NCBI GenBank assembly: GCA_020055645.1
Contig: CM034550.1
Span: forward strand, 21,546,880 to 21,610,879
Length of the DNA stretch: 64,000 bases
Origin: Tomocerus qinae
Lineage: Eukaryota; Arthropoda; Collembola; Entomobryomorpha; Tomoceridae
Direction of reading: 5' to 3'
Numbering within the stretch: the first letter of the stretch is position 1; each line of letters begins with the position of its first letter. Positions 4,610 to 28,104 of this stretch are shown piece by piece. A program made the position numbers and the translations under genes. The notes under the pieces are model-generated. The model made no database searches. It was not told the origin of the DNA and saw only the letters and a list, made by a program, of their open reading frames with translations.

Positions 4610-7600
4610 ATGGATCCTTGGCAAGTTACCCCACCTGAAAGGGCGCGGCACATAGAACAATTTCGGGGTCTCAACCCTATCGGAGGTTATGTCACCGGTG
4701 ACCAAGCGAAAGGATTTCTTCTTCAATCTGGACTTCCCCCGCCTGTTTTAGGACAGATATGGTAAGGCGTAATTTTTTTCCTACAATTCTAAATTCTAAA
4801 CAAAATTCTGCCCGTGTTTCCAGAATACATTTCAGTAAATTTGAATTTAGTATATAACTATGTCATGTTTCATTTGAAGTGTGAAGTGTGAAAATTGATT
4901 TTAATTTCCATATTTTACAGGAGCTTAGCTGACGTAAATTGCGACGGCAAAATGGACATCAACGAGTTCAGTGTGGCCTGTAAATTGATTACAATGAAAC
5001 TGCGTGGGAGTGAAGTCCCGCCTGTTTTACCTCCGTCTTTAAAAGCGGCTTTGGCTGGGACTGGAACGACTACTCCCCAACCAATTTCTCCAGCAGGATC
5101 CCTTACTGGAGGAGTAATGTCGCCTCCACTTCGACCTATAGCTCCAGTGGCAGCTCAGCCTTTAGTCATGGGAATGGGATTAGCTCAACAACCCTTGATG
5201 GGTGGTGGTATTCCTCCACAAATCCCGCCTCCCGCTATGATGATGCATGGTGCTGGCGTTGTACCTTCGCCCCTGCCGGCGGTTCCTCCAGCTTCTCTTT
5301 CTTTTAACTCTCCTGTACCCCCTGGTAAGCAAAATGTTTTTTTAATCGCAGGTTATTTGGTTATGTTGTTTAGGAATTTTTTACATCTGATTATATTCTT
5401 TCATTCATTGCAGTTGTTCGACCCGCAGCACCATTACAGGAATCCATGTCTATGCCTCGCTCCGTTTCTGTTACTAGTCAGGATTCAATGTAAGAAATTG
5501 ATCATTCTATAGCTGTATACCATTGTATTGATTTGCTTTTATCTTTTATGTGATTGAGTGACTTCCGTTGAATCGTACATTATATTGGTGTGTTATTACA
5601 ATATAAGTCTATCTTGTTTGATGTTTATATACTGCTTTCTAAGTTTCTACTACTACTACGAAGAAATTCTAATGTTGGTCCGTTGTCAACTAAGTTTATT
5701 TGCATTAGTCGATCAGTCCATATATATTAATTCTGTAATTAATTTCAGTGCTTCGCCTTTAATGGAATGGGCAGTACCAAATCCATCGCGATTAAAATAT
5801 ACTCAACTCTTTAATCAAAATGACCGCTCCAAATCGGGGTTTCTTACGGGTGTTCAGGCAAGAAATATTTTACTGGGAACTGGTCTTCCGCAACCCATCT
5901 TAGCGCAAGTTTGGGGTCTCTCTGATCTCGATGCAGATGGTCGTCTCTCCAGTGAAGAATTCGTATTGGCCATGCATCTTTGTGACGTAGCCAAGCAGGT
6001 TTGTATGGGATAAATTATTTATAACTATTTACAACTCATTATTTTTTATTTTATTAACACAACTTGCATTGTACAGATGGGTCGTCTGCCCCCGAAATTA
6101 GCTCCAGATTTAATTCCCCCATCGTTTCGTGTCGGAAGTAGAAAACAGTCAATTAAAAGCGTGCCCGGCTCGGCAGTTGTTAGTGGCCAAAATACGGGTG
6201 CAAATACACCAGTCATTGATGATCCTCTTTTGTCACCAGGAGGTACTAGTTTTGAAGATAAAAGAAAAGAAAACTTCGACAAGGGACAGGCTGAACTAGA
6301 TCGACGGAGAAAGGTATTACTAGATATGCAAAATAGAGAACGAGAAGAAAGAGAGCGAAAAGAACGGGAAGAATTCGAGCGGAAAGAAAAACAGAGGTTA
6401 GTAAGACGATAATATATTGTGCATATTTGTTTTGATAGTTCCGCTATCATCTGTTTTAAATGCCAACACTTGACATTTATGTTCTATATGGTCGTATAAT
6501 TATGTAGTCTAAATAGATTCAAAAGGATGCTAAAATTTCTGCCTATACTACTTTCATATAAATTGTCTGCTTATATGCTTGTTATATTATGTGCTTATAA
6601 GTATATCAATTTCCCATCCATTTTGACTATGGAAGCTAAAATCTTTGAAATGTCTTGTACTTTTTAGATTGGAGTTAGAAAGGCGACAACAAGAAGAGAG
6701 AGAAAGGCAATTATCAATACAACGTGAAATGGAAGAAAGGAGGATGGAAGAATTAAGAAAGAATGAAGAACAGAAAGAAGCAGCAAGAAGAGAAATGGAA
6801 CGGCAGCGGAAGGCGGAAATGGAGGAGAACAAAAGACATGATCTGCTTGCTCGTCGTCAAAAGGAACAAGATGACGTGCTCCGTTTGAAAGGAGTAAATC
6901 ATGGACAAGGCCTTGAACTGTCTCAATTAGTAATTTAAAAAAATAACATTCAACTTCCTGCAAAACAGGAAATAAGGTATACTTATGGTTTTAGTCTCTT
7001 CCTGATTTAATTTAATGTCTTGTGCTCAGGCGGAAAAGGTGAAAGAACTTTCGGGTAAAATAACGGAAACTCGAGTCGGTGTTTCAACAGTCAAGTCAGA
7101 AATTGATGGCATGCGCTCAAAGAGAGATGGCTATATGAATGAAATGGGAATGCTCAAAGCTCAATTAAAAGATCAAAATAACCGAATGCTTCTCGCAGCT
7201 CAAGAAAAAGTTCGTGTGGAAAAACTCGTTACAGAGAGTGAAGTGAAGCAAATTAATTTGAAACAATTAAGAGAGAAGATTCAAAATTTGAAGGACGAGG
7301 TGTGTATTTAAAAAGACATGTATATATATATATATACACTTTTGGATAGTGTATAATATAGTCTTCAAGGAGGTTAGTTGGAATTTATTAAACAAAAATA
7401 TTTCCCGGACTTGATTACAGTTGGCGAAAAAGCAATCCGATTCGGATATTGGCAGTGAGGAGCTAAATGAATTAAAATCTACCTTATCATCTCTTATTGA
7501 AAGTTGCAAGACAATATATGACGAATATAAGGATAAGCGTGAGAAGGTCATTGCCTTACGAAAGAAGCATCATCAAGAATTCGACTATAATGCTGCTTGG

Positions 7601-10600
7601 GGAGACCATTCGTCTGCCTCTGCAGCTCCTGCTGCCGCTGCTGCTGTAGATGGGATACAAGAGGCTGTGTACTATCGGGCCATTTACGATTTTGACTCCA
7701 GAAATCCAGATGAACTGTCTTTTGCTACTGGTGCCATTATTCGAGTGAGTCAAAATATTTAGTTGGCTATTGGCTAAACTCGTACTGTAACAATTGAGAA
7801 TTTTTGTATCTGAAATGTGATAAAACCAACAAAAATGGTATGCTAAGACTAAGAATGTTATGTTTCCATACAGAGAAACGACGATGTTGTTCCAGATCCT
7901 GGCTGGCTTTCAGGAACTCTGGATGGCAAGTCAGGGTGGTTTCCCGAATCCTTTGTGGAGACTGTATCTGGAGAAGGGTTATCCACTTCGTAAGTTTTTT
8001 TCATATCTGCAACGATATAAAATTATGATAATGATTATTATCTCTACAACAATGTAGTAATGTATGTATTATATATTTCTTCAAATAATATTTGATTTTC
8101 TGAGATGAGATGTGTATTAAATTTTATTTTTGTAGTACTGCAAATGTCGAAGTTGCAGCCCAACCTACTGCCGAAGTCACTGGATTTCCCGAAGCTCAGT
8201 TCAGTTTTGATGCAGGAAGTGGAAGTGGTGGAGGTAATATATATTTATTTTATTTACCGAAGTACCGAGAATTATAGTGCATGCTAAAATAACGCATGTA
8301 TGATTGATAAGCATTGACAGTGGAAAATAGAAAAAGAAGGTAATAACAGTTTCCTTTTTCATGGTTGTAGGGTTTTATGTGGCTCTGTACCCTTACGAAT
8401 CGAATGAACCTGGTGACTTGCCTTTCGACGCTGGTGAAGTTATTTTCGTAACGCAAAATGAAGGAGAATGGTGGACTGGTCAAATAGGATCTGATCGAGT
8501 AGGTTTATTTCCAGCTAATTATGTCGCTAAACAAGACGAAGTAACTACTAACTCGGGAGGTGACCAAGAAACGGTTCAGGACGCATTTACTATGAATAAC
8601 AATAGTACAGCTGCTGAGGATGCTGCCAATTCAAATGTTATAACAAGTTCTTCCAACTTTGCGCCTTCAATGATAAATGATGTTTGTGAAACGAGTAAAA
8701 CGGAACTAGAGCCGTACGAGGAGGCTGAAATCAAAAGAGAAATTAGTGAAATAGCAAAGGCTCCTCCAAAATCTCCTAAAACGATAAAAACTAAGAGATA
8801 TGAAATTGCGACTGTCCTTTCAAACTATCAAGGTACTTCTGAAGGACAACTGCATTTAACTCGGGGCCAGCTGATCACCGTCAGGAAAAAGTCTGCTTCA
8901 GGATGGTGGGAAGGAGAACTACAGGTAAGCACCTCTTATTATTAGTTTATTAGTGAAGGTTCAAACTTCAAACCAAACCCCGTAAATTGAATTACGGTTT
9001 CTATTAAGCTACGGCTGGAATGCGAAATACAAACCTTTCCATTTACAGGAGATAAGTATGCGTTCCAGCGTTACGATGACTTGTGTAAATAATAATATTG
9101 CAAATAAGATGTTTAAGAAGAATATGGAATTGTAATTTTTTTACAGGCCAAAGGTAAAAAACGACAATTGGGCTGGTTTCCTGGATCATACGTAAAAGTA
9201 TTGGGTCCTGGAGGCGGTTCTCGTCAATCTTCCTCCCGTACTACACCAATTCCTTTTGATGAGATTGATATGCCTGTAACTGATGCACCAATTTATAATG
9301 ACACCAAAGGTAGTGATAATTAAATTAATTTTGTATTTCAAATTGGTATTTTATATTATGTGAAAGTGAATTAATTTTAGTATGACGAACATAAGTAATA
9401 TATAAATTAAATATTTGAATTTTTAGAACAAGTCATAGCTCTGTACCCTTATACTGCCCAAAACAATGATGAGTTGACGTTTATAAAAGACGACGTAATT
9501 TCAATAATATCCAAAGATGAACCAGACTGGTGGCGAGGTCAATTGGGGACTTCTGTCGGCCTTTTTCCTACAAATTATGTCCAACCCATGTCGAATCCTC
9601 AATCTCAAGATATTCAGTGTAAGTATCTTTTAATATGATCTCTGTATTTGATAGTTAGCTTACAATAATGGTAAAATTACAACCATATAGTTAATTAGCT
9701 CTTTTTAATGGCACTCTGGTTCAGCTAACGCCTTGGTCTGTATTCTCTATAGGTTTCGCTCACTAAAAATACGCATATATTATAAATTTATTTAACAAAT
9801 TATTACTGATGACAAAATACACTACACCAATACTTCAAATAATATGTGGAAATCTTATCTTCCATGTCTTTCTCGCTATTTTCATATTAATTTTGGTTAT
9901 TTATTACCTATTAAGGTTACACTTTGGCCCTGCATAGCAACCACAGGGGACTATCAAAATGCATGTTAAAAAATCTTTTACATCGACTATTATAACTTCC
10001 GGAGGATCAGTCTGATTTTTATGGGACCTACATTTTTGGAACCGTGGACTATCAAGGAACAAAAGTTAGCATTCGGAATTTTGATATAGTTGCTTTAAAT
10101 GGACCAAAAACATCAACGTTTTATAAAAAACTAAAAATGACTCATTTTTTTGGGAATTTGATTTTTTTAAATGCATTTAAAACAACTATATCAAAATTCC
10201 GAATGGTAACTTTTGTTCCTTGATAGTCCACTGTTCCAAAAATGTAGGTCCCATAAAAATCAGACTGATCCTCCGGAAGTTATAACAGTCGATGTAAAGA
10301 TATTATGATGAATTTTAAATGCATGGAGGTTGACCCGAATTGCTGATGATGGAATACCGAGGGCATAAGTCAATGCAATTCCAAAAAATTAGTTTCTAGG
10401 AAACGGGGAAGTGTATTATATTATAAAGATTTCTATACTGACTTGTATAGTAGCATTTCCACCTGTCGTCATTGGCAATGTTATTACTTTAGTACAAAAA
10501 TCTTTTTTGTTTGCATCTTGCTTCAATGCATTCATACTTGTAAGTTTAAGTTATAACCATGGTTGTTATAACTACTATCAAGGATGTCTATTGTCCATGT

Positions 10601-19600: not shown

Positions 19601-20833
19601 CTTCCGTCACTTTAATTTTGCATGAGCTGCGTTTCTCTGTAGAAATAAGGTAGTAATTTTTGGTGGCAGACGACCTTGACCTAACTAGACTGCCTTTTTG
19701 CATGGCTATGGCTTATCACAATAATTGACCATATAAAGGCTGTTGAAATAATGCTTTTCGCAAAATGTTTTATTGAAACATTTTTGCGTAGTAGTACCAA
19801 TACCAATTACGTCAGTCTTGGCATTATTAAAGCATTGCAATACATTGTAATAAGGATTACTATATGATAATTAACTAGTTTAAAGTGTTTTGCTAATAAG
19901 TAATTAGTTTTTGGTTGGTAAAAGTGGGCTACGCTCACTTGCTACGTAATTTATATTCTGTTCCAAACAAAGATGCGTCTTCATCTCATGCTTATACACT
20001 TTCATATGCAATTGTTTGTAGTTCGCCGACGGCCTATAAAGGGTAAACTAAAGGTCCAAGTTGTCGCGGGCCGCTCCTTAGCTAATCGTGATCCAAACGG
20101 TACTAGACACCATCGCTTTTTTGCACTAAAAAACTATTCTGGTATATTTACACATTATTCTTACAAGCATGCCGATATTGTAAATATTATGAGCTTTAAA
20201 GCTGTCAAGTAAGCTTTGCATTGCTCGTTTTGGAAACATGAGAATTTTAAATACTCATTTAGTGCATGCTATGTAAGTTTTAAAAATGACGGAATTATAA
20301 ACCCTATGCTTGATGTTTGATAATGTAGTGCTATTTAATTAATGGAGTTTGTAATCATAGGAAAAAGTGATCCGTACTGCGAAGTAAGTCTGGGATCTGA
20401 AATAAGGAAGACGAGAGTGATTAGGGGGACACTGAATCCGAAATGGAATGACTCGATGCAGTTTTCAGTTAAAGATTTATACGAGGATATTCTGTGCCTT
20501 ACTGTATATGACAAGGATTATTTCTCTCCTGACCGTAAGTTTTGATTAATGTATATAATGTTATATATAAATGTATATATAAATATAATGTGAAGTGTAC
20601 AAAATATTCTGAATAATTTGAAATGTATGTATATAATCTTTCAATGCTTTAAGAAATTAAGTGTTTCTGATTCTGTTTTTATCTTAGAATTTTTGGGGAG
20701 GACGGAGATTGGGATATCTACTATACACGAGGAAACTCTAAACAGAAAAACTCCATGGACAAAAAAATTCCACTTACATGAGATTGAAACTGGAGACATT
20801 GTCATAAAATTGCATCTACAGATATTTGAGTAA
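4610..20833 (+). CDS. Intersectin, long form (EH-EH-coil-SH3x4-DH-PH-C2)
   Basis: Twenty-two coding exons: 4610-4761, 4921-5324, 5414-5489, 5749-5998, 6077-6396, 6668-6929, 7030-7299, 7421-7744, 7874-7989, 8136-8233, 8371-8924, 9147-9309, 9427-9618, 17310-17593, 17671-17847, 17928-18134, 18464-18703, 18784-18918, 19012-19216, then 19465-19539 or 20022-20099, then 20361-20534 and 20688-20833. The sum is 1607 or 1608 residues, in frame throughout. EH1 is at about 10-105 (EF loop [13 protein letters not shown]) and EH2 at 216-310 ([13 protein letters not shown]). A Glu/Arg-rich coiled coil spans 350-620. SH3 domains lie near 659-717, 758-815, 901-961 and 998-1052. The DH domain starts near 1130 ([15 protein letters not shown]), followed by PH and a C2 at about 1477-1605. 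Known role: endocytic scaffold binding dynamin and synaptojanin through SH3 domains, with Cdc42 exchange by DH-PH. A DPF motif (GDDPF) between SH3-D and DH could bind AP-2. Exon 14 starts at a weak-tract acceptor (AATAAATAG) chosen because it alone keeps frame. Confidence 0.94.
7319..7336. repeat. (TA)n microsatellite
   Basis: Short TA dinucleotide tract inside intersectin intron 7. Confidence 0.8.
9974..10300. repeat. Foldback element with about 127-bp inverted arms
   Basis: Bases 9974-10101 are nearly identical to the reverse complement of 10174-10300, with a few substitutions and one indel, around a 72-bp loop. Shared blocks include ATCAGTCTGATTTTTATGGG and TCCGGAGGATCAGTCTGATT. No coding frame and no clear target-site duplication is seen. 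The high arm identity implies recent insertion or ongoing arm conversion. Confidence 0.85.
10594..10723. repeat. Small MITE-like palindrome, 20-bp terminal inverted repeats
   Basis: TCCATGTGACATAAACGGCC at 10594-10613 is inverted at 10704-10723 with a single mismatch. The 130-bp unit has no coding capacity. I could not define a target-site duplication, so its family is open; it may belong together with the adjoining foldback element. Confidence 0.6.
19465..19539 (+). CDS. Intersectin exon 20a, first version of the C2 start
   Basis: 75 nt between an acceptor (TCTTACAG) and a donor (AGTG|GTAAGA), entering and leaving in phase 1. It encodes the first strands of the C2 domain, with [20 protein letters not shown] at the core. 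Joined to exon 21 it runs straight into [13 protein letters not shown], the expected C2 sequence. It has the same phases and nearly the same length as the 78-nt exon at 20022-20099, so the two look mutually exclusive. Confidence 0.8.
20022..20099 (+). CDS. Intersectin exon 20b, second version of the C2 start
   Basis: 78 nt between an acceptor (GTTTGTAG) and a donor (AACG|GTACTA), entering and leaving in phase 1. It encodes [20 protein letters not shown], aligning position by position with exon 20a ([20 protein letters not shown]). The GRxL/GKLxVxVxxGxxL pattern is the ordinary first strand of a C2 domain. Splicing to exon 21 gives a complete C2. Including both exons would also keep frame but would duplicate the first two strands. 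Confidence 0.75.
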
Positions 20834-21452: not shown

Positions 21453-21642
21453 ATTTTTAATTATTATTCATTGAAATAATTACGTGCTGTCAGTAGTAAT
21501 AAATATTTACTCATTCTCAAAATCATAAAATAAATATTATCAAAATCATAAAATAAATATGTCTATTTTTATTTATTTCTGCCCCACGAAGCTTACAATA
21601 ATATTTTTAGGAATTGATAGCCTTTGCAATCGTACATACAAA

Positions 21643-22697
21643 ATTACAGGTTAAAAACCTGGAGAAATATACGGGGAGAAGGCCAGAAAAACTCGAAAAC
21701 AATGTACAATTTTGATGCCAAAATAATTAAAGCTCGTAATTTTAAAATTTTCTTCAAAAAAATCTCCCCGTGCGTTTACCGCTAATTTACTTGCAACTCT
21801 CTTCGAAAAAAAAGGCATTTTAAAGAACAAAAATACAATAGTGATTCAATTAATTTCTGAAGCGGGGATGGAAAATATGTTCGACAATGGGAACATACTG
21901 TACCCTCAGTAATTGTAACGACTCAAAGTTATTTTCTGAAAATCAAAATCCAGATTAAATTGTCGTATCCATAGTCATTAAGAAACAATTAAGAGTATAA
22001 ATTTAACAGTAAAATATATTTAAATCTGACTGCGCTATAATTGTCAACTAAATGTCCAAAGTGCAATAAAAATGTTGCAGTGTTAAGAAATTGCCACAAT
22101 GTATAAAGTAACTTTTATAAAATAACTTAACTAAATTTTCTGCTTTTTATACGGTATTTTTTTGCCTTGAAATACAGTGTCATCTTATTTCAATATTTAC
22201 ATTTCCATGAAATTTATATTTGCAGTTGTTAGCACTTAAAGTCTAGTTGATAATACAGTATGTCAAGAAAGTATGCATCCATATGAAATCAGTTTCCACA
22301 GCATAGCAGTTTGTACTTCATTATTCTATTGTTATAATCTTAACTCTCAAATGAGGACTAAGTTTGTTATTGTTATTAATTTATTACAAGTTGTTTATCC
22401 TTATTATAAATTTGATACTGCCCGATACTGACTGTTACTGACTACCTGTTAGTTGGATATGGACTTCGCTTACTATGGCTGGGTACTATGGATACTTACT
22501 TTCTTACCATACTGTAGTGTGGATCTAAAGTTTTAAGGTTGTCGCAACAAAATTAACTGTAAACGCACGGGGAGATTTTTTTGAAGAAAATTTTAAAATT
22601 ACGAGCTTTAATTATTTTGGCATCAAAATTGTACCTTGTTTTCGAGTTTTTCTGGCCTTCTCCCCGTATATTTTTCCAGGTTTTTAACCTGTAATTT
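21643..22697. repeat. Inner inverted repeat pair, about 137-bp arms
   Basis: Bases 21643-21779 match the reverse complement of 22559-22697 with few differences; both carry ACGGGGAGAAGGCCAGAAAA and an end AAACGCACGGGGAGATTTTT. The 780 bp between the arms include one copy of the outer-arm block (21836-22107). The arms therefore behave like terminal inverted repeats of a 1.05-kb element that sits in, or was assembled with, the left side of the palindrome. Confidence 0.8.
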
Positions 22698-22770
22698 TTA
22701 TTTTATTGTTTTTCTTGATATATCTGGTTATAATTATAACTATCATATAACCACGAACACAAAATTTTTT

Positions 22771-23054
22771 AACTGTCAAAAATGAATTTATCCACTACCG
22801 AAGCAAGTTACCTTATATAAATTTTGTTTTTATGCTTGCATTTCACCAACTTTCTTTTTCTCTCCTTGAATTTCACCAACAATATACTCCTTTAATATTG
22901 CAAAATAATGTTGATTAGTAAAAGAAAGAGTACCTATATCAATCATAATCAAATTTGTTCAATGCATGTGTATTCTAACCAACGGGCTAGAAAATTAGAC
23001 GCATTGTTGTGGAATCCTTACTTGGTGTTGGTGTATGCAATAAAAACCGATGAG
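22771..23054 (+). pseudogene. Acylphosphatase fragment block A
   Basis: Order on the + strand: start codon and first ten codons of acylphosphatase exon 1 (ATG at 22782), an inverted exon 3 end plus intron start (22820-22880), a unit-specific tail, an intron 2 piece (22927-22973), and the acylphosphatase 5' flank piece from 22979. It ends in a CCGATGAG junction. The exon 1 frame stops after MNLSTTEASYLI, so nothing functional is encoded. Confidence 0.8.
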
Positions 23055-23112
23055 AAATAAAATAATAAATAAAAACCGATGAGATATGAGATGATTTATT
23101 TATTTCTTTCTT

Positions 23113-23415
23113 TCTTTTACTAATCAACATTATTTTGCAATATTAAAGGAGTATATTGTTGGTGAAATTCAAGGAGAGAAAAAGAAAGTTGGTGAAATGT
23201 AAGCATAAAAACAAAATTTATATAAAGTTACTTGCTTCGGTAGTGGATAAATTCATTTTTGACAATTAAAATTATTTTATGTTCTTGTTATCTTGCACCA
23301 CATGCATACACCAACACCAAGTAAGGATTCCACAACAATGCGTCTAATTTTCTAGCCCGTTGGTTAGAATACACATGCATTGAACAAATTTGATTATGAT
23401 TGATATAGGTACTCT
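23113..23415 (-). pseudogene. Acylphosphatase fragment block B
   Basis: Inverted relative to block A. Reading on the minus strand: intron 2 piece, 5' flank (23363-23340), continuous 5' flank into exon 1 (ATG at 23256-23254), then the inverted exon 3 end (23158-23219 on the + strand). Here the 5' flank runs directly into exon 1 as in the intact gene, which shows the source order. Confidence 0.8.
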
Positions 23416-23702
23416 TTCTTTTACTAATCAACATTATTTTGCAATATTAAAGGAGTATATTGTTGGTGAAATTCAAGGAGAGAAAAAGAAAGTTGGTGAA
23501 ATGTAAGCATAAAAATAAAATTTATATAAGGTTGCTTGCTTCGGTAGTGGATAAATTCATTTTTGACAATTAAAATTATTTTATGTTCTTGTTATCTTGC
23601 ACCACATGCATACACCAACACCAAGTAAGGATTCCACAACAATGCGTCTAATTTTCTAGCCCGTTGGTTAGAGTCACCGAAAACCGATGAGATATGAGAT
23701 GA
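23416..23702 (-). pseudogene. Acylphosphatase fragment block C
   Basis: Direct repeat of block B, almost identical through exon 1 (ATG at 23560-23558), exon 3 end (23462-23523) and 5' flank (23644-23667). It continues further into the 5' flank (GAGTCACCGAAAACCGATGA), a stretch matching 25690-25707 upstream of the intact gene, instead of the intron 2 piece. Confidence 0.8.
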
Positions 23703-23783
23703 TTTATTTATTTATTTTAATTTCCTTACATTTTTAACCTTATATAAATAAATAAATTATTTTATTTCTCATCGGTTTTTATT

Positions 23784-23886
23784 GCATACACCAACACCAA
23801 GTAAGGATTCCACAACAATGCGTCTAATTTTCTAGCCCGTTGGTTAGAATACACATGCATTGAACAAATTTGATTATGATTGATAT
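23784..23886 (-). pseudogene. Acylphosphatase fragment block D
   Basis: Partial block holding only the 5' flank piece (23820-23843) and the intron 2 piece, on the minus strand; it lacks exon sequence. It is bounded on both sides by ATCGGTTTTTAT junctions. Confidence 0.7.
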
Positions 23887-23935
23887 CGGTTTTTATTTAT
23901 TATTTTATTTCTCATCGGTTTTGATGAGAAAACAA

Positions 23936-24092
23936 TAGTGGATAAATTCATTTTTGACAATTAAAATTATTTTATGTTCTTGTTATCTTGCACCACATGC
24001 ATACACCAACACCAAGTAAGGATTCCACAACAATGCGTCTAATTTTCTAGCCCGTTGGTTAGAGTCACCGAAAACTGATGAGATATGAGATG
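23936..24092 (-). pseudogene. Acylphosphatase fragment block E
   Basis: Partial block with a truncated exon 1 start (ATG at 23951-23949) and 5' flank (24035-24058) on the minus strand, ending in the same CACCGAAAA stretch as block C. The exon 3 part is missing. Confidence 0.7.
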
Positions 24093-24205
24093 ATTTATTT
24101 ATTTATTTATTTTAATTTCCTTACATTTTTAACCTTATATAAATAAATAAATTATTTTATTTCTCATCGGTTTTTATTGCATACACCAACACCATGCAAC
24201 ACATA

Positions 24206-24461
24206 TTCGTGGGGCAGAAATAAATAAAAATAGACATATTTATTTTATGATTTTGAGAATATTTATTTTATGATTTTGAGAATGAGTAAATATTTATTAC
24301 TACTCACAGCACGTAATTATTTCAATGAATAATAATTAAAAATACTTACTTTTGCATACACAATCTTAAGGAATCTTCGTTTCCCTTTATTGCATTCTGC
24401 ATTTTTGTTTTTGTTGTTGTTGCTTTTGTTGGATATTGCATTGCATATTGCATCTGTTTCC
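24206..24461 (+). repeat. Direct repeat copy 1 of the acylphosphatase upstream segment
   Basis: Repeats 25363-25604 in the same orientation, from TTCGTGGGGCAGAAATAAAT to GCATATTGCATCTGTTTCC, with a short extra TTTTTGTTGTTG tract. Its first part is also the left outer arm in inverted form. Confidence 0.85.
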
Positions 24462-24469
24462 AATATTTA

Positions 24470-24790
24470 TTTTAATTGTCAAAAATGAATTTATCCACTA
24501 CCGAAGCAAGTAACCTTATATAAATTTTGTTTTTATGCTTGCATTTCACCAACTTTCTTTTTCTCTCCTTGAATTTCACCAACAATATACTCCTTTAATA
24601 TTGCAAAATAATGTTGATTAGTAAAAGAAAGAGTACCTATATCAATCATAATCAAATTTGTTCAATGCATGTGTATTCTAACCAACGGGCTAGAAAATTA
24701 GACGCATTGTTGTGGAATCCTTACTTGGTGTTGGTGTATGCAATAAAAACCGATGAGAAATAAAATAATAAATAAAAACCGATGAGATAT
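24470..24790 (+). pseudogene. Acylphosphatase fragment block F
   Basis: Same orientation and order as block A and nearly identical to it: exon 1 start (ATG at 24485), inverted exon 3 end (24523-24583), tail, intron 2 piece (from 24629) and 5' flank (from 24682). Confidence 0.8.
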
Positions 24791-24815
24791 GAGATGATTT
24801 ATTTATTTATTTATT

Positions 24816-24941
24816 TCTTTTACTAATCAACATTATTTTGCAATATTAAAGGAGTATATTGTTGGTGAAATTCAAGGAGAGAAAAAGAAAGTTGGTGAAA
24901 TGTAAGCATAAAAACAAAATTTTCATAGCTTCATTTGTTTA
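24816..24941 (+). pseudogene. Acylphosphatase fragment block G
   Basis: Contains the tail and the exon 3 end (24861-24923) in sense orientation, and continues into acylphosphatase intron 3 (TTCATTTGTTTA, compare 26336-26347). It then joins the right-hand outer arm. Confidence 0.75.
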
Positions 24942-25109
24942 TTGTGGCAAATTCTTTACACTGCAATATTTTTATTGCACTTTGGACATTATTTAGTTGA
25001 CAGTTATAGCGCAGTCATAACTAAATATATTTTACTGTTAAATGTTGTTAATACGGAAAAATTTATACTCATAAATGGTGATTAATTACTATGGATACGA
25101 CAATTTAAC

Positions 25110-25286
25110 ATGGATTTTGGAACCTGGAATGCAACAATTACTGAGGAAACATGTTGTATGTACAATTGCAAAGTGTTCCCACAGAACACTAAAGGCAGCT
25201 TTGACTGGCGTTCCCATTGTGGAAAATATTTTCCATCCCCGCTTCAGAAGTTAATTGAATACCTATTGTATAAACGGAAATTATAA
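25110..25286 (+). CDS. 58-codon ORF of unknown meaning
   Basis: ATG to TAA, 58 codons, inside the right outer arm. The peptide has four Cys (two adjacent, CC, then NC and HC), but I recognise no domain. The inverted copy in the left arm (around 21840-21960) carries an internal deletion that removes the middle of this frame. It could be a fragment of an exon captured with the repeat, or chance. Confidence 0.15.
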   Translation: MDFGTWNATITEETCCMYNCKVFPQNTKGSFDWRSHCGKYFPSPLQKLIEYLLYKRKL

Positions 25287-25362
25287 ATACTCGTATACGT
25301 ACTACAATATTTTGTATGTACGATTGCAAAGGCTATCAATTCCTAAAAATATTATTGTAAGC

Positions 25363-25604
25363 TTCGTGGGGCAGAAATAAATAAAAATAGACATATTTAT
25401 TTTATGATTTTGAGAATATTTATTTTAATATTTTGAGAATGAGTAAATATTTATTACTACTCACAGCACGTAATTATTTCAATGAATAATAATTAAAAAT
25501 ACTTACTTTTGCATACACAATCTTAAGGAATCTTCGTTTCCCTTTATTGCATTCTGCATGAACTGCTTTTGTTGGATATTGCATTGCATATTGCATCTGT
25601 TTCC
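25363..25604 (+). repeat. Direct repeat copy 2, next to the intact acylphosphatase gene
   Basis: Second copy of the segment at 24206-24461. It is continuous with the acylphosphatase 5' flank, so it is the likely source copy. Confidence 0.8.
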
Positions 25605-25815
25605 CAGAAAATATTGACGCATATCAATAAATTCTCCTAGCTGTACATAAAATAATACGTACTACATAGTCGTCATCATCATCTCCTATCTCGGTTTTCG
25701 GTGACGCTAACCAACGGGCTAGAAAATTAGACGCTTTGTTGTGAAGTCCTTCCTTACTTGGTGTTTGCATGTGGTGCAAGATAACAAGAAAATTAAATAG
25801 TTTTAATTGTCAAAA

Positions 25816-26545
25816 ATGAATTTATCTACTACCGAAGCAAGTAACCTTAATAGGGAGAACATCTCTGTTCGATTTGAAATCTTTGGAAAAGTGCAAGGTA
25901 TGAATCGTAATCAATTTGATATTTTAAATCAAAGAAATGTTTATATTGCCAATAATTGGTATCAATAATGATTTTCCATTTGAATCTGACAGTTTAAATG
26001 ATGTCCTATTTGTATATATTTCAGGTGTCTACTTCAGAAAGGTAATTAGCTGTTATTCTAGAAAGAGTACCTATATCAATCATGTTCAATGCATGTGTAT
26101 ATCTTGTTATATGCATGGAACTATTATAATTTAATAATATTAGTGTCTTAGTGTTGTAGTAATTCCATTTAATTAAATGACCATTGTATGTACATAGCAT
26201 ACTCAAGAGAAAGGTGAAAGTCTGGGACTGAGAGGTTATTGCGAAAATACGGTTCGTAATACCGTTGTTGGTGAAATTCAAGGAGAGAAAAAGAAAGTTG
26301 GTGAAATGTAAGCATAAAAACAAAATTTTATAGTTTCATTTGTTTACAGATCGAAATACTAGAAAACAATAATTATAAATGTTCAAAATGTGCATAATAT
26401 TATATTAAGAACCTTAATTTTTTAACTTAGGAAAGAATGGCTTCAAAAGGTTGGAAGCCCTAAATCCAGAATTGATAAGGCAGAATTTGCAGATGAAAAG
26501 CCGATTGCTAACTTTAATTATGATGGATTCACCATTAGACGTTGA
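25816..26545 (+). CDS. Acylphosphatase
   Basis: Four exons, 25816-25897, 26025-26041, 26198-26307 and 26431-26545, give 107 residues (family about 98-100) ending in TGA. The signature FGKVQGVYFRKHTQEKGESL spans three exons. The catalytic pair is Arg32 (in YFRKHT) and Asn50 (in YCENT), 18 residues apart as Arg23 and Asn41 are in the vertebrate enzymes. The C terminus FNYDGFTIRR is typical. The enzyme is a small cytosolic hydrolase of carboxyl-phosphate bonds such as acetyl phosphate. Exon 2 is only 17 nt and supplies GVYFRK, so its skipping would destroy the active site. The gene is convergent with the F-box gene. It appears intact and is the evident source of the fragments at 22771-24941. No codon of the gene is broken. 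Confidence 0.93.
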
Positions 26546-26877: not shown

Positions 26878-26883
26878 TTTATT
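26878..26883 (-). terminator. Poly(A) signal fused with the F-box stop codon
   Basis: The minus strand reads CAATAAAAG across the end of the F-box gene. The TAA stop codon (26881-26879) lies inside the AATAAA hexamer (26883-26878), implying a 3' UTR of only 10-30 nt. Confidence 0.6.
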
Positions 26884-28104
26884 GCATCACTTTGCGTTTG
26901 CACAATGGACTTAACATGACTCCATTACAAATAATTTGTACAATTTCTAAAGTTGTTTGGCTCGTTAAGAAAGAGGAAATGATATTTGGAATTTTTAAGG
27001 AATCATTTTTGGTTTCATAATGCAAAGCGAAATGATTCAACTGCAGTTTCATTTGTAATAGCCCTTTTAGTATCTCTGATTCGCTGCGGTGTCGGAAGTG
27101 AAAGCAAGGTCCAATGATAATCAATTTACGCAAAGTAGTATAACAACATTTAGGAATTGCTCCAAAAATTTCACTAATAGAAAACATGTACTTTTCTTGT
27201 AAATCACTGCATTCTACTGAAAATTCTAATTTGGTAAGAAATGGAACGGATAGGTGGTGAATGGTGTTTAAATTTTTTATAATGTTATTACAAAAGCCTT
27301 TGTTTGCTGAACATGGAATGTAAGCAAAATTAAGGCACAAGTCATGAATTGGCAACTGATGATTGATTTTTGATGGTTTGAGTAGCCGTTTCAGTTTTGC
27401 CGTTCTCGTTTTCCCATTTCTGTACTCCAAAGCGGTAGACAGGAATTTATCTGAGAATAAATCTTCTGTGCCTATTCAATAAAATAAATCACAATTTACA
27501 TGAATATATGCCTCAACTTCTACCATTATGTCCAAAAGTACTGAATTGCTATGATTGGAATACCTCCAAGCACCATGCATCCCAATTTTAAAGTTTTAAG
27601 ATTGACAGCACATAGTAAAAGCTTGGAGAAATTATTTTGCGAAATACTTCCAAGAATAACTAACTCGGATATGAACTGAAAGTTTAGACGAAGAATGGCT
27701 TCTGAAATTTCCGTTTTCAAAACTGTTACAGTTATTGCTTTAGTAGGAGAAAATGACAATGGCATCTGCAGCAATTTCTTATACCATTTTTCATGTAACT
27801 GAAATTTACGGTTAGCTAGATAGCATTGATTAATTTTCATGCAAACAGCCCAGCAAGTTAATCTGCAATTAAGGAGGTCTTTTCTTGACACTTGGTCGAA
27901 TATTTTGATAATCAGCTGCAATATTTAAAATATTTTCTCAAATATTGATCTCGTAATTAATTTTTGCTGATAATATACTTTATACATGTAAGTAGTTATT
28001 TTTTACCTCACCTCATTCGGTAGAAATACAAAACAATTTTGGGCTTCTATTTTGTTTTTGAGTTTTGATTGCTCTTTTCTCCTTGAAACAAATACTTGGC
28101 CCAT
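26879..28104 (-). CDS. F-box protein, leucine-rich C-terminal part
   Basis: Three exons on the minus strand, 28104-28012, 27915-27564 and 27471-26879, encode 345 residues; junction phases agree. The F-box is at about residues 28-70: CFVFLPNE at the end of exon 1 joined to LIIKIFDQVSRKDLLNCRLT in exon 2, with the LP.E....IF..L...DLL.CR..C pattern that binds SKP1. The rest is Leu/Ile-rich with motifs such as LKTLKLGCM and LRKLIIIGPCF that look like degenerate leucine-rich repeats, presumably for substrate binding. By family, it would be a substrate adaptor of an SCF ubiquitin ligase. No specific ortholog is recognised; such genes are often lineage-expanded. The upstream start (ATG at 28104) was chosen because it completes the F-box. 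It is convergent with acylphosphatase. Confidence 0.8.

Follow-up and report, generated by a model that had tools for sequence, protein, structure and literature searches.

The window, the 64,000-nucleotide stretch of DNA analysed here, corresponds to C5:21546880-21610879 of an assembly of 334.4 Mb in 115 contigs. On its plus strand, a rearranged field of about 4 kb separates an acylphosphatase gene from an upstream gene, also on the plus strand, which we take to be intersectin-like (named by eye from ORF fragments; its last frame ends at 20833). Within the field, an array of about 2 kb lies just upstream of the acylphosphatase gene. The predicted four-exon acylphosphatase frame is 107 aa long, terminates in a stop codon and matches PF00708 over profile positions 2-85 of 85 (E 3.2e-22). 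Judged from this predicted splicing, the gene reads as intact with a full domain, in agreement with an earlier sequence-only reading of this DNA. The features of the locus are collected in Table 1.

Table 1. Features of the rearranged field and of the neighbouring acylphosphatase gene
Feature	Position	Strand	Details
Inverted copy of gene-upstream 25309-25500	21453..21644	-	98% over 192 bp; 5-bp overlap AAAAT at TE-A junction
TE-A, long copy of a dispersed element, 3′ tail cut at array junction	21640..22774	+	95.5% and 96.4% to two copies, on C1 and C5
TE-A inverted arms, two of 158 bp	21640-21797, 22541-22698		Within TE-A
Foldback unit, copy 1	22767..23219	+	99.1% over 453 bp to 24470-24922, direct orientation; painting
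304-bp scrambled monomer, 1.9 tandem copies	23109..23672	-	TRF, 98% matches; painting
Longest contiguous copy of gene 5′ region (25678-25849)	23527..23703	-	89% over 177 columns
Q, imperfect palindromic filler	23672..23800	.	Second copy at 24063-24194; 10/10 genome matches at acylphosphatase locus
Additional inverted copy of 5′ flank and exon 1 start (25678-25831)	23936..24094	-	88%; self-BLAST
Direct copy of gene-upstream 25363-25615, small indels	24206..24467	+	Self-BLAST, pairwise alignment, painting
Foldback unit, copy 2	24470..24941	+	Last piece retains more intron 3 (to 26346) than other copies; self-BLAST, painting
TE-B, fragment of TE-A's element family, inverted relative to TE-A	24934..25269	-	99% to C2:41319374-41319710
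Acylphosphatase exon 1	25816..25897	+	Intact gene; frame assembly
Acylphosphatase exon 2	26025..26041	+	Frame assembly
Acylphosphatase exon 3	26198..26307	+	26265-26307 recurs 5 times in array
Acylphosphatase exon 4, includes stop	26431..26545	+	Frame assembly

Composition of the array

The field consists of pieces of the acylphosphatase gene, one direct and one inverted piece of its upstream region, pieces of a dispersed element, and filler. The sequence-only reading had counted in the array six copies of a 24-base marker from the 5′ flank (two plus, four minus), five exon 1 starts and five exon 3 ends matching the acylphosphatase gene, and each of these counts was recovered. The 24-mer used here is shifted by 2 bases relative to the original and the positions agree; a seventh copy lies in the flank of the gene itself. 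In addition to the source, exon 1 starts are present with ATGs at 22782 (+), 23256 (-), 23560 (-), 23951 (-) and 24485 (+), exon 3 ends are identical at 43/43 bases in every copy, and a piece of intron 2 occurs three times in the array. The same reading described the pieces as scrambled in order and orientation, with exon 1 fused to inverted exon 3/intron 3 and intron 2 placed before the 5′ flank; self-BLAST, alignment and painting bear this out, and self-BLAST and painting also support its view that the neighbouring gene is the source of the pieces and that the composite was multiplied in both orientations.

The foldback unit opens with an exon 1 start and exon 3/intron 3 in inverted form, continues through a filler that we call X, the intron 2 piece, 5′ flank and a Q-like filler, and closes with inverted X followed by exon 3/intron 3 running as in the gene. 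Painting of 22700-24960, for which the gene locus and the element were the only donors offered, returned a recurring series: 25801-25849, inverted 26328-26265, X (39 bp), 26060-26100, which has 10 bases more in the array than in the gene, and 25707-25765 or slightly longer. The minus-strand monomer is built from 5′ flank with exon 1 start, the inverted end of exon 3 and start of intron 3, X and the intron 2 piece, and on this strand the 5′ flank runs directly into the exon 1 start, over as much as 25678-25849. Self-BLAST puts the internal similarity beyond chance, with a direct pair of 453 bp at 99%, which is the repeated foldback unit, and an inverted pair of 274 bp at 99%. The direct upstream copy is fused to an exon 1 start copy, with 25616-25800 absent between them.

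Both fillers were matched at the acylphosphatase locus only, and no donor for them was found in the searches. Within X and Q, painting also marked short stretches (11-42 bp, at 82-100%) as element-like; in A+T-rich DNA we attribute such matches to chance, and we assign neither filler to a donor. Nor do we regard as genes the four ATG frames of at least 40 aa in 22700-24960, which are 47-50 aa long.

Genome-wide searches and the elements at the edges

An abundant dispersed repeat, to which the intact gene would be only incidentally similar, was one outcome that the sequence-only reading had named as speaking against its view. The genome queries bearing on it were 22700-23400, Q, part of X, and the gene with its flank. 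The composite query (22700-23400) gave at least 64 matches, 26 at the acylphosphatase locus and 38 elsewhere (40 of 300 candidates), and all 38 outside matches listed fall in query bases 1-75, which are the element tail. The other queries stayed at home: 10/10 matches for Q, 5/5 for X (26/39 bases as query, with at most 3 mismatches; reversed control, 0) and 17/17 for the gene with its flank. On these searches, a dispersed composite repeat is therefore ruled against, since gene pieces and fillers were found at a single locus, and the mosaic appears to be private to the acylphosphatase locus as far as it was searched. A second acylphosphatase gene was likewise considered as donor and rejected, as the gene DNA has no match outside its own locus (3/3 candidates scored). 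A family search returned two other exon-level acylphosphatase matches, on C3 and C4; it was not exhaustive, and the window's own gene, with its coding sequence spread over four exons, was missed.

Both edges of the array are formed by pieces of a high-copy element that the sequence-only reading had overlooked, TE-A on the left and TE-B on the right. The first 161 bases of TE-A have at least 41 matches, 2 of them at the acylphosphatase locus (40 of 647 candidates). For query 24930-25700, which includes TE-B, at least 43 matches were obtained, 38 of them elsewhere and the best at 99% (40 of 324 candidates), and the outside matches listed all lie within query bases 5-342. TE-A and TE-B both end at array junctions, where other copies of the element continue; three of these (L012, L013 and L014) extend past the point at which TE-A joins exon 1. 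The start of TE-A appears to be the element's own 5′ end, and TE-A may therefore be a true insertion.

Junctions and proposed origin

Six junctions were inspected, one of them by eye. Three have an exact overlap of 2-6 bp: 5 bp between the outer arm and the element start, 6 bp between the element tail and exon 1, and 2 bp between intron 3 and the element fragment, where the first bases of TE-B overlap the intron 3 piece. The remaining three lack overlap and carry unassigned bases, 3 between exon 1 and inverted intron 3, 1 between intron 2 and 5′ flank, and 8 between the upstream piece and exon 1. The assigned donors lie within about 4 kb and are used in both orientations. Identity within the array is mostly 94-100%, with one gapped pair at 75%, and identity between array and gene is approximately 80-99%, gaps counted.

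With a probability of roughly 0.7, we interpret the field as a gene-private mosaic, most likely functionless, that arose 5′ of the acylphosphatase gene through a series of short-range template switches (repair of the MMBIR/FoSTeS type, or recurrent microhomology joining). Template-switching repair is favoured because junction homology is short or absent, the donors are near and in both orientations, and a foldback unit was recopied. Since three of the six junctions are without microhomology, end joining is equally allowed at those three. The lack of a donor for X and Q in the searches, and the chance that TE-A is a true insertion, also count against this reading. The sequence-only reading had named both template switching and the capture of gene pieces by foldback or Pack-type elements; serial local template switching fits better, and capture is unsupported for reasons given below.

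We infer the following order of events. A segment of 5′ flank would first have been duplicated, and exon 1, exon 3/intron 3 and intron 2 pieces joined in mixed order and orientation. The joined pieces would then have formed a foldback (palindromic) unit, and this unstable unit may have been recopied directly, inverted, and as the 304-bp tandem. Finally, pieces of the resident high-copy element would have ended up at both edges. The higher identity inside the array than between array and gene suggests that the scrambling is older and the multiplication younger. The right-hand foldback copy is probably the older of the two, as it keeps more of intron 3 and adjoins the direct copy of the gene-upstream region.

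In the literature consulted, the closest rearrangement systems are short-range template switching (PMC7954356) and ODIRA (PMC10766186). Template-switch/MMBIR rearrangements share with the array donors that lie close by and in mixed orientation, junctions whose homology is short or absent, and palindromic products that rearrange again; the array differs in its several composite copies, in the shuffled order of its exon and intron pieces, and in the mobile-element pieces that bound it. Among the papers listed in the literature searches, we found neither an acylphosphatase hairpin nor a similar shuffled array.

Hairpin potential and competing explanations

The array is probably a neutral rearrangement generated by repair, with hpRNA potential. 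It contains a long inverted repeat that is predicted to fold into dsRNA, and its arms are homologous to a protein-coding target. RNA of 22767-23672 has a predicted MFE of -505.9 kcal/mol, compared with -172.3 +/- 6.9 in 20 shuffles (0/20 as low), and the predicted fold of 23430-24925 reaches -501 (native sequence only). At 201 bp, 22839-23039 and 23303-23503 form the longest exact inverted pair, separated by 263 nt, and 21-mers of the array match the gene perfectly at 25801-25826, 25828-25849 and 26265-26329. The last of these matches extends beyond the end of exon 3 at 26307. A stem of this kind could feed Dicer, and dsRNA against acylphosphatase is structurally possible.

These observations raise the alternative that the array is a young hpRNA locus, in which read-through from the upstream gene, or a transcript from a 5′-flank copy, would yield long dsRNA and siRNAs matching acylphosphatase exons 1 and 3. 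Precedents are found in Drosophila, where hp58 of D. simulans neighbours its target and a partial 5′ duplication gave rise to another hpRNA at ballchen (PMC10317233). We nonetheless consider this alternative unlikely. Good folding is expected from any long inverted repeat, and just 77 coding bases (34 + 43) of the gene are represented. Fixed differences to the gene number 1/77 at exon-derived sites and 8/218 at other sites (Fisher p = 0.45), a comparison of low power, in which the gene's own constraint acts in the same direction and some 5′-flank sites variable among copies reflect gap placement; it provides no support for selection for exon complementarity.

A stronger version would have the locus transcribe itself. 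The 5′-flank copies, which point in both directions, could serve as promoters from which the shuffled exon 1/exon 3 pieces would be transcribed convergently, such that one repair accident would have made both a promoter and a silencing hairpin against the neighbouring gene. We regard such a nascent hpRNA locus as quite improbable. The same paper calls the origin of hpRNA loci and their promoters an ongoing conundrum (PMC10317233). A mosaic found at one locus, next to the intact gene it derives from and with 5′-flank copies inside it, is the type of raw material that could give rise to an hpRNA locus. If silent, the array is still a well resolved case of local gene shuffling by repair. The Drosophila hpRNA loci with which we compared it (Dsim-hp58, the hp-tHMG cluster and hp-CG4068; PMC10317233) resemble it in their long inverted repeats with gene-derived arms and in local multiplication; Dsim-hp58 was also born beside its gene, and hp-ODox has element sequence mixed in. 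The array differs from them in that its arms are scrambled mosaics with few coding bases and that it is known here from DNA sequence alone.

Mobile elements offer another route to such a structure. In gene capture by foldback, Pack-type or Helitron elements, gene pieces come to lie beside element sequence and inverted arms are present; Helitrons are further recognized by 5′ TC and 3′ hairpin-CTRR ends and by insertion at AT. Here, element pieces bound the array, and the 192-bp inverted pair at 98% identity brackets the field. We judge it very unlikely, however, that the gene pieces were captured and multiplied by such an element. The composite was not found at several sites among the matches listed (40 of 300 candidates), and gene-derived pieces and fillers were found at one locus with no second site. 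The outer arm on the gene side continues into native flank, of which a further, direct copy lies at 24206-24461, and a target-site duplication was not seen by eye at 21453/25500. Both element pieces are truncated at the array junctions, at points where other copies run on.

An assembly artefact is similarly far from probable: inverted repeats are known to cause misassembly, and one random control region (L017) also carries a near-perfect palindrome, but the copies in the array have private substitutions and indels, their identity to the gene is well below 100%, and a field of about 4 kb is small relative to long reads, the assembly having 115 contigs for 334 Mb. With minima of 40 bp and 85% identity for inverted pairs, the 10-kb tile containing the array has 26, compared with 0 in six other tiles of the window. 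Of 20 regions of 10 kb drawn at random from this genome, 15 had none and the maximum was 5. In inverted bases, L017 exceeds the array tile (3781 vs 2830 bp); its palindrome is nested, and large inverted structures thus occur elsewhere in the assembly.

Splice donor of intron 3 in the array copies

Among the five array copies of the exon 3 end and intron 3 start, two, at 22819-22882 and 24522-24585, have GC where intron 3 has its GT splice donor; one lies in each of the foldback unit's two forward copies. The other three retain GT.

Sequences flanking the array and the gene

The element copy that borders the array on its left carries 158-bp inverted arms, the first at its 5′ end and the second set back from the 3′ end by 75 bp or more. 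On the far side of the acylphosphatase gene, open frames look, as judged by eye, like those of an F-box/leucine-rich-repeat protein.

Neighbouring features in the window
Feature	Position	Strand	Remarks
High-copy dispersed element	21640-22774		~1.14 kb up to array junction
Open frames	26879-27924	minus	downstream of acylphosphatase gene

Repeats in random control regions

One 10-kb control region, L017 (C1:80986534-80996533), contains a near-perfect nested palindrome at 5622-9980, with inverted arms of ~1.5 kb (99.8%) and an additional 1.04-kb tandem copy (99.9%); it is either of very recent origin or an assembly artefact. Overlapping inverted pairs of 53-114 bp (91-94%) form a small cluster at L024:1786-2469, possibly a minor mosaic. 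Two tandem arrays, with periods of ~64 and ~138 bp, occupy 1120-1976 and 9115-10000 of L031.
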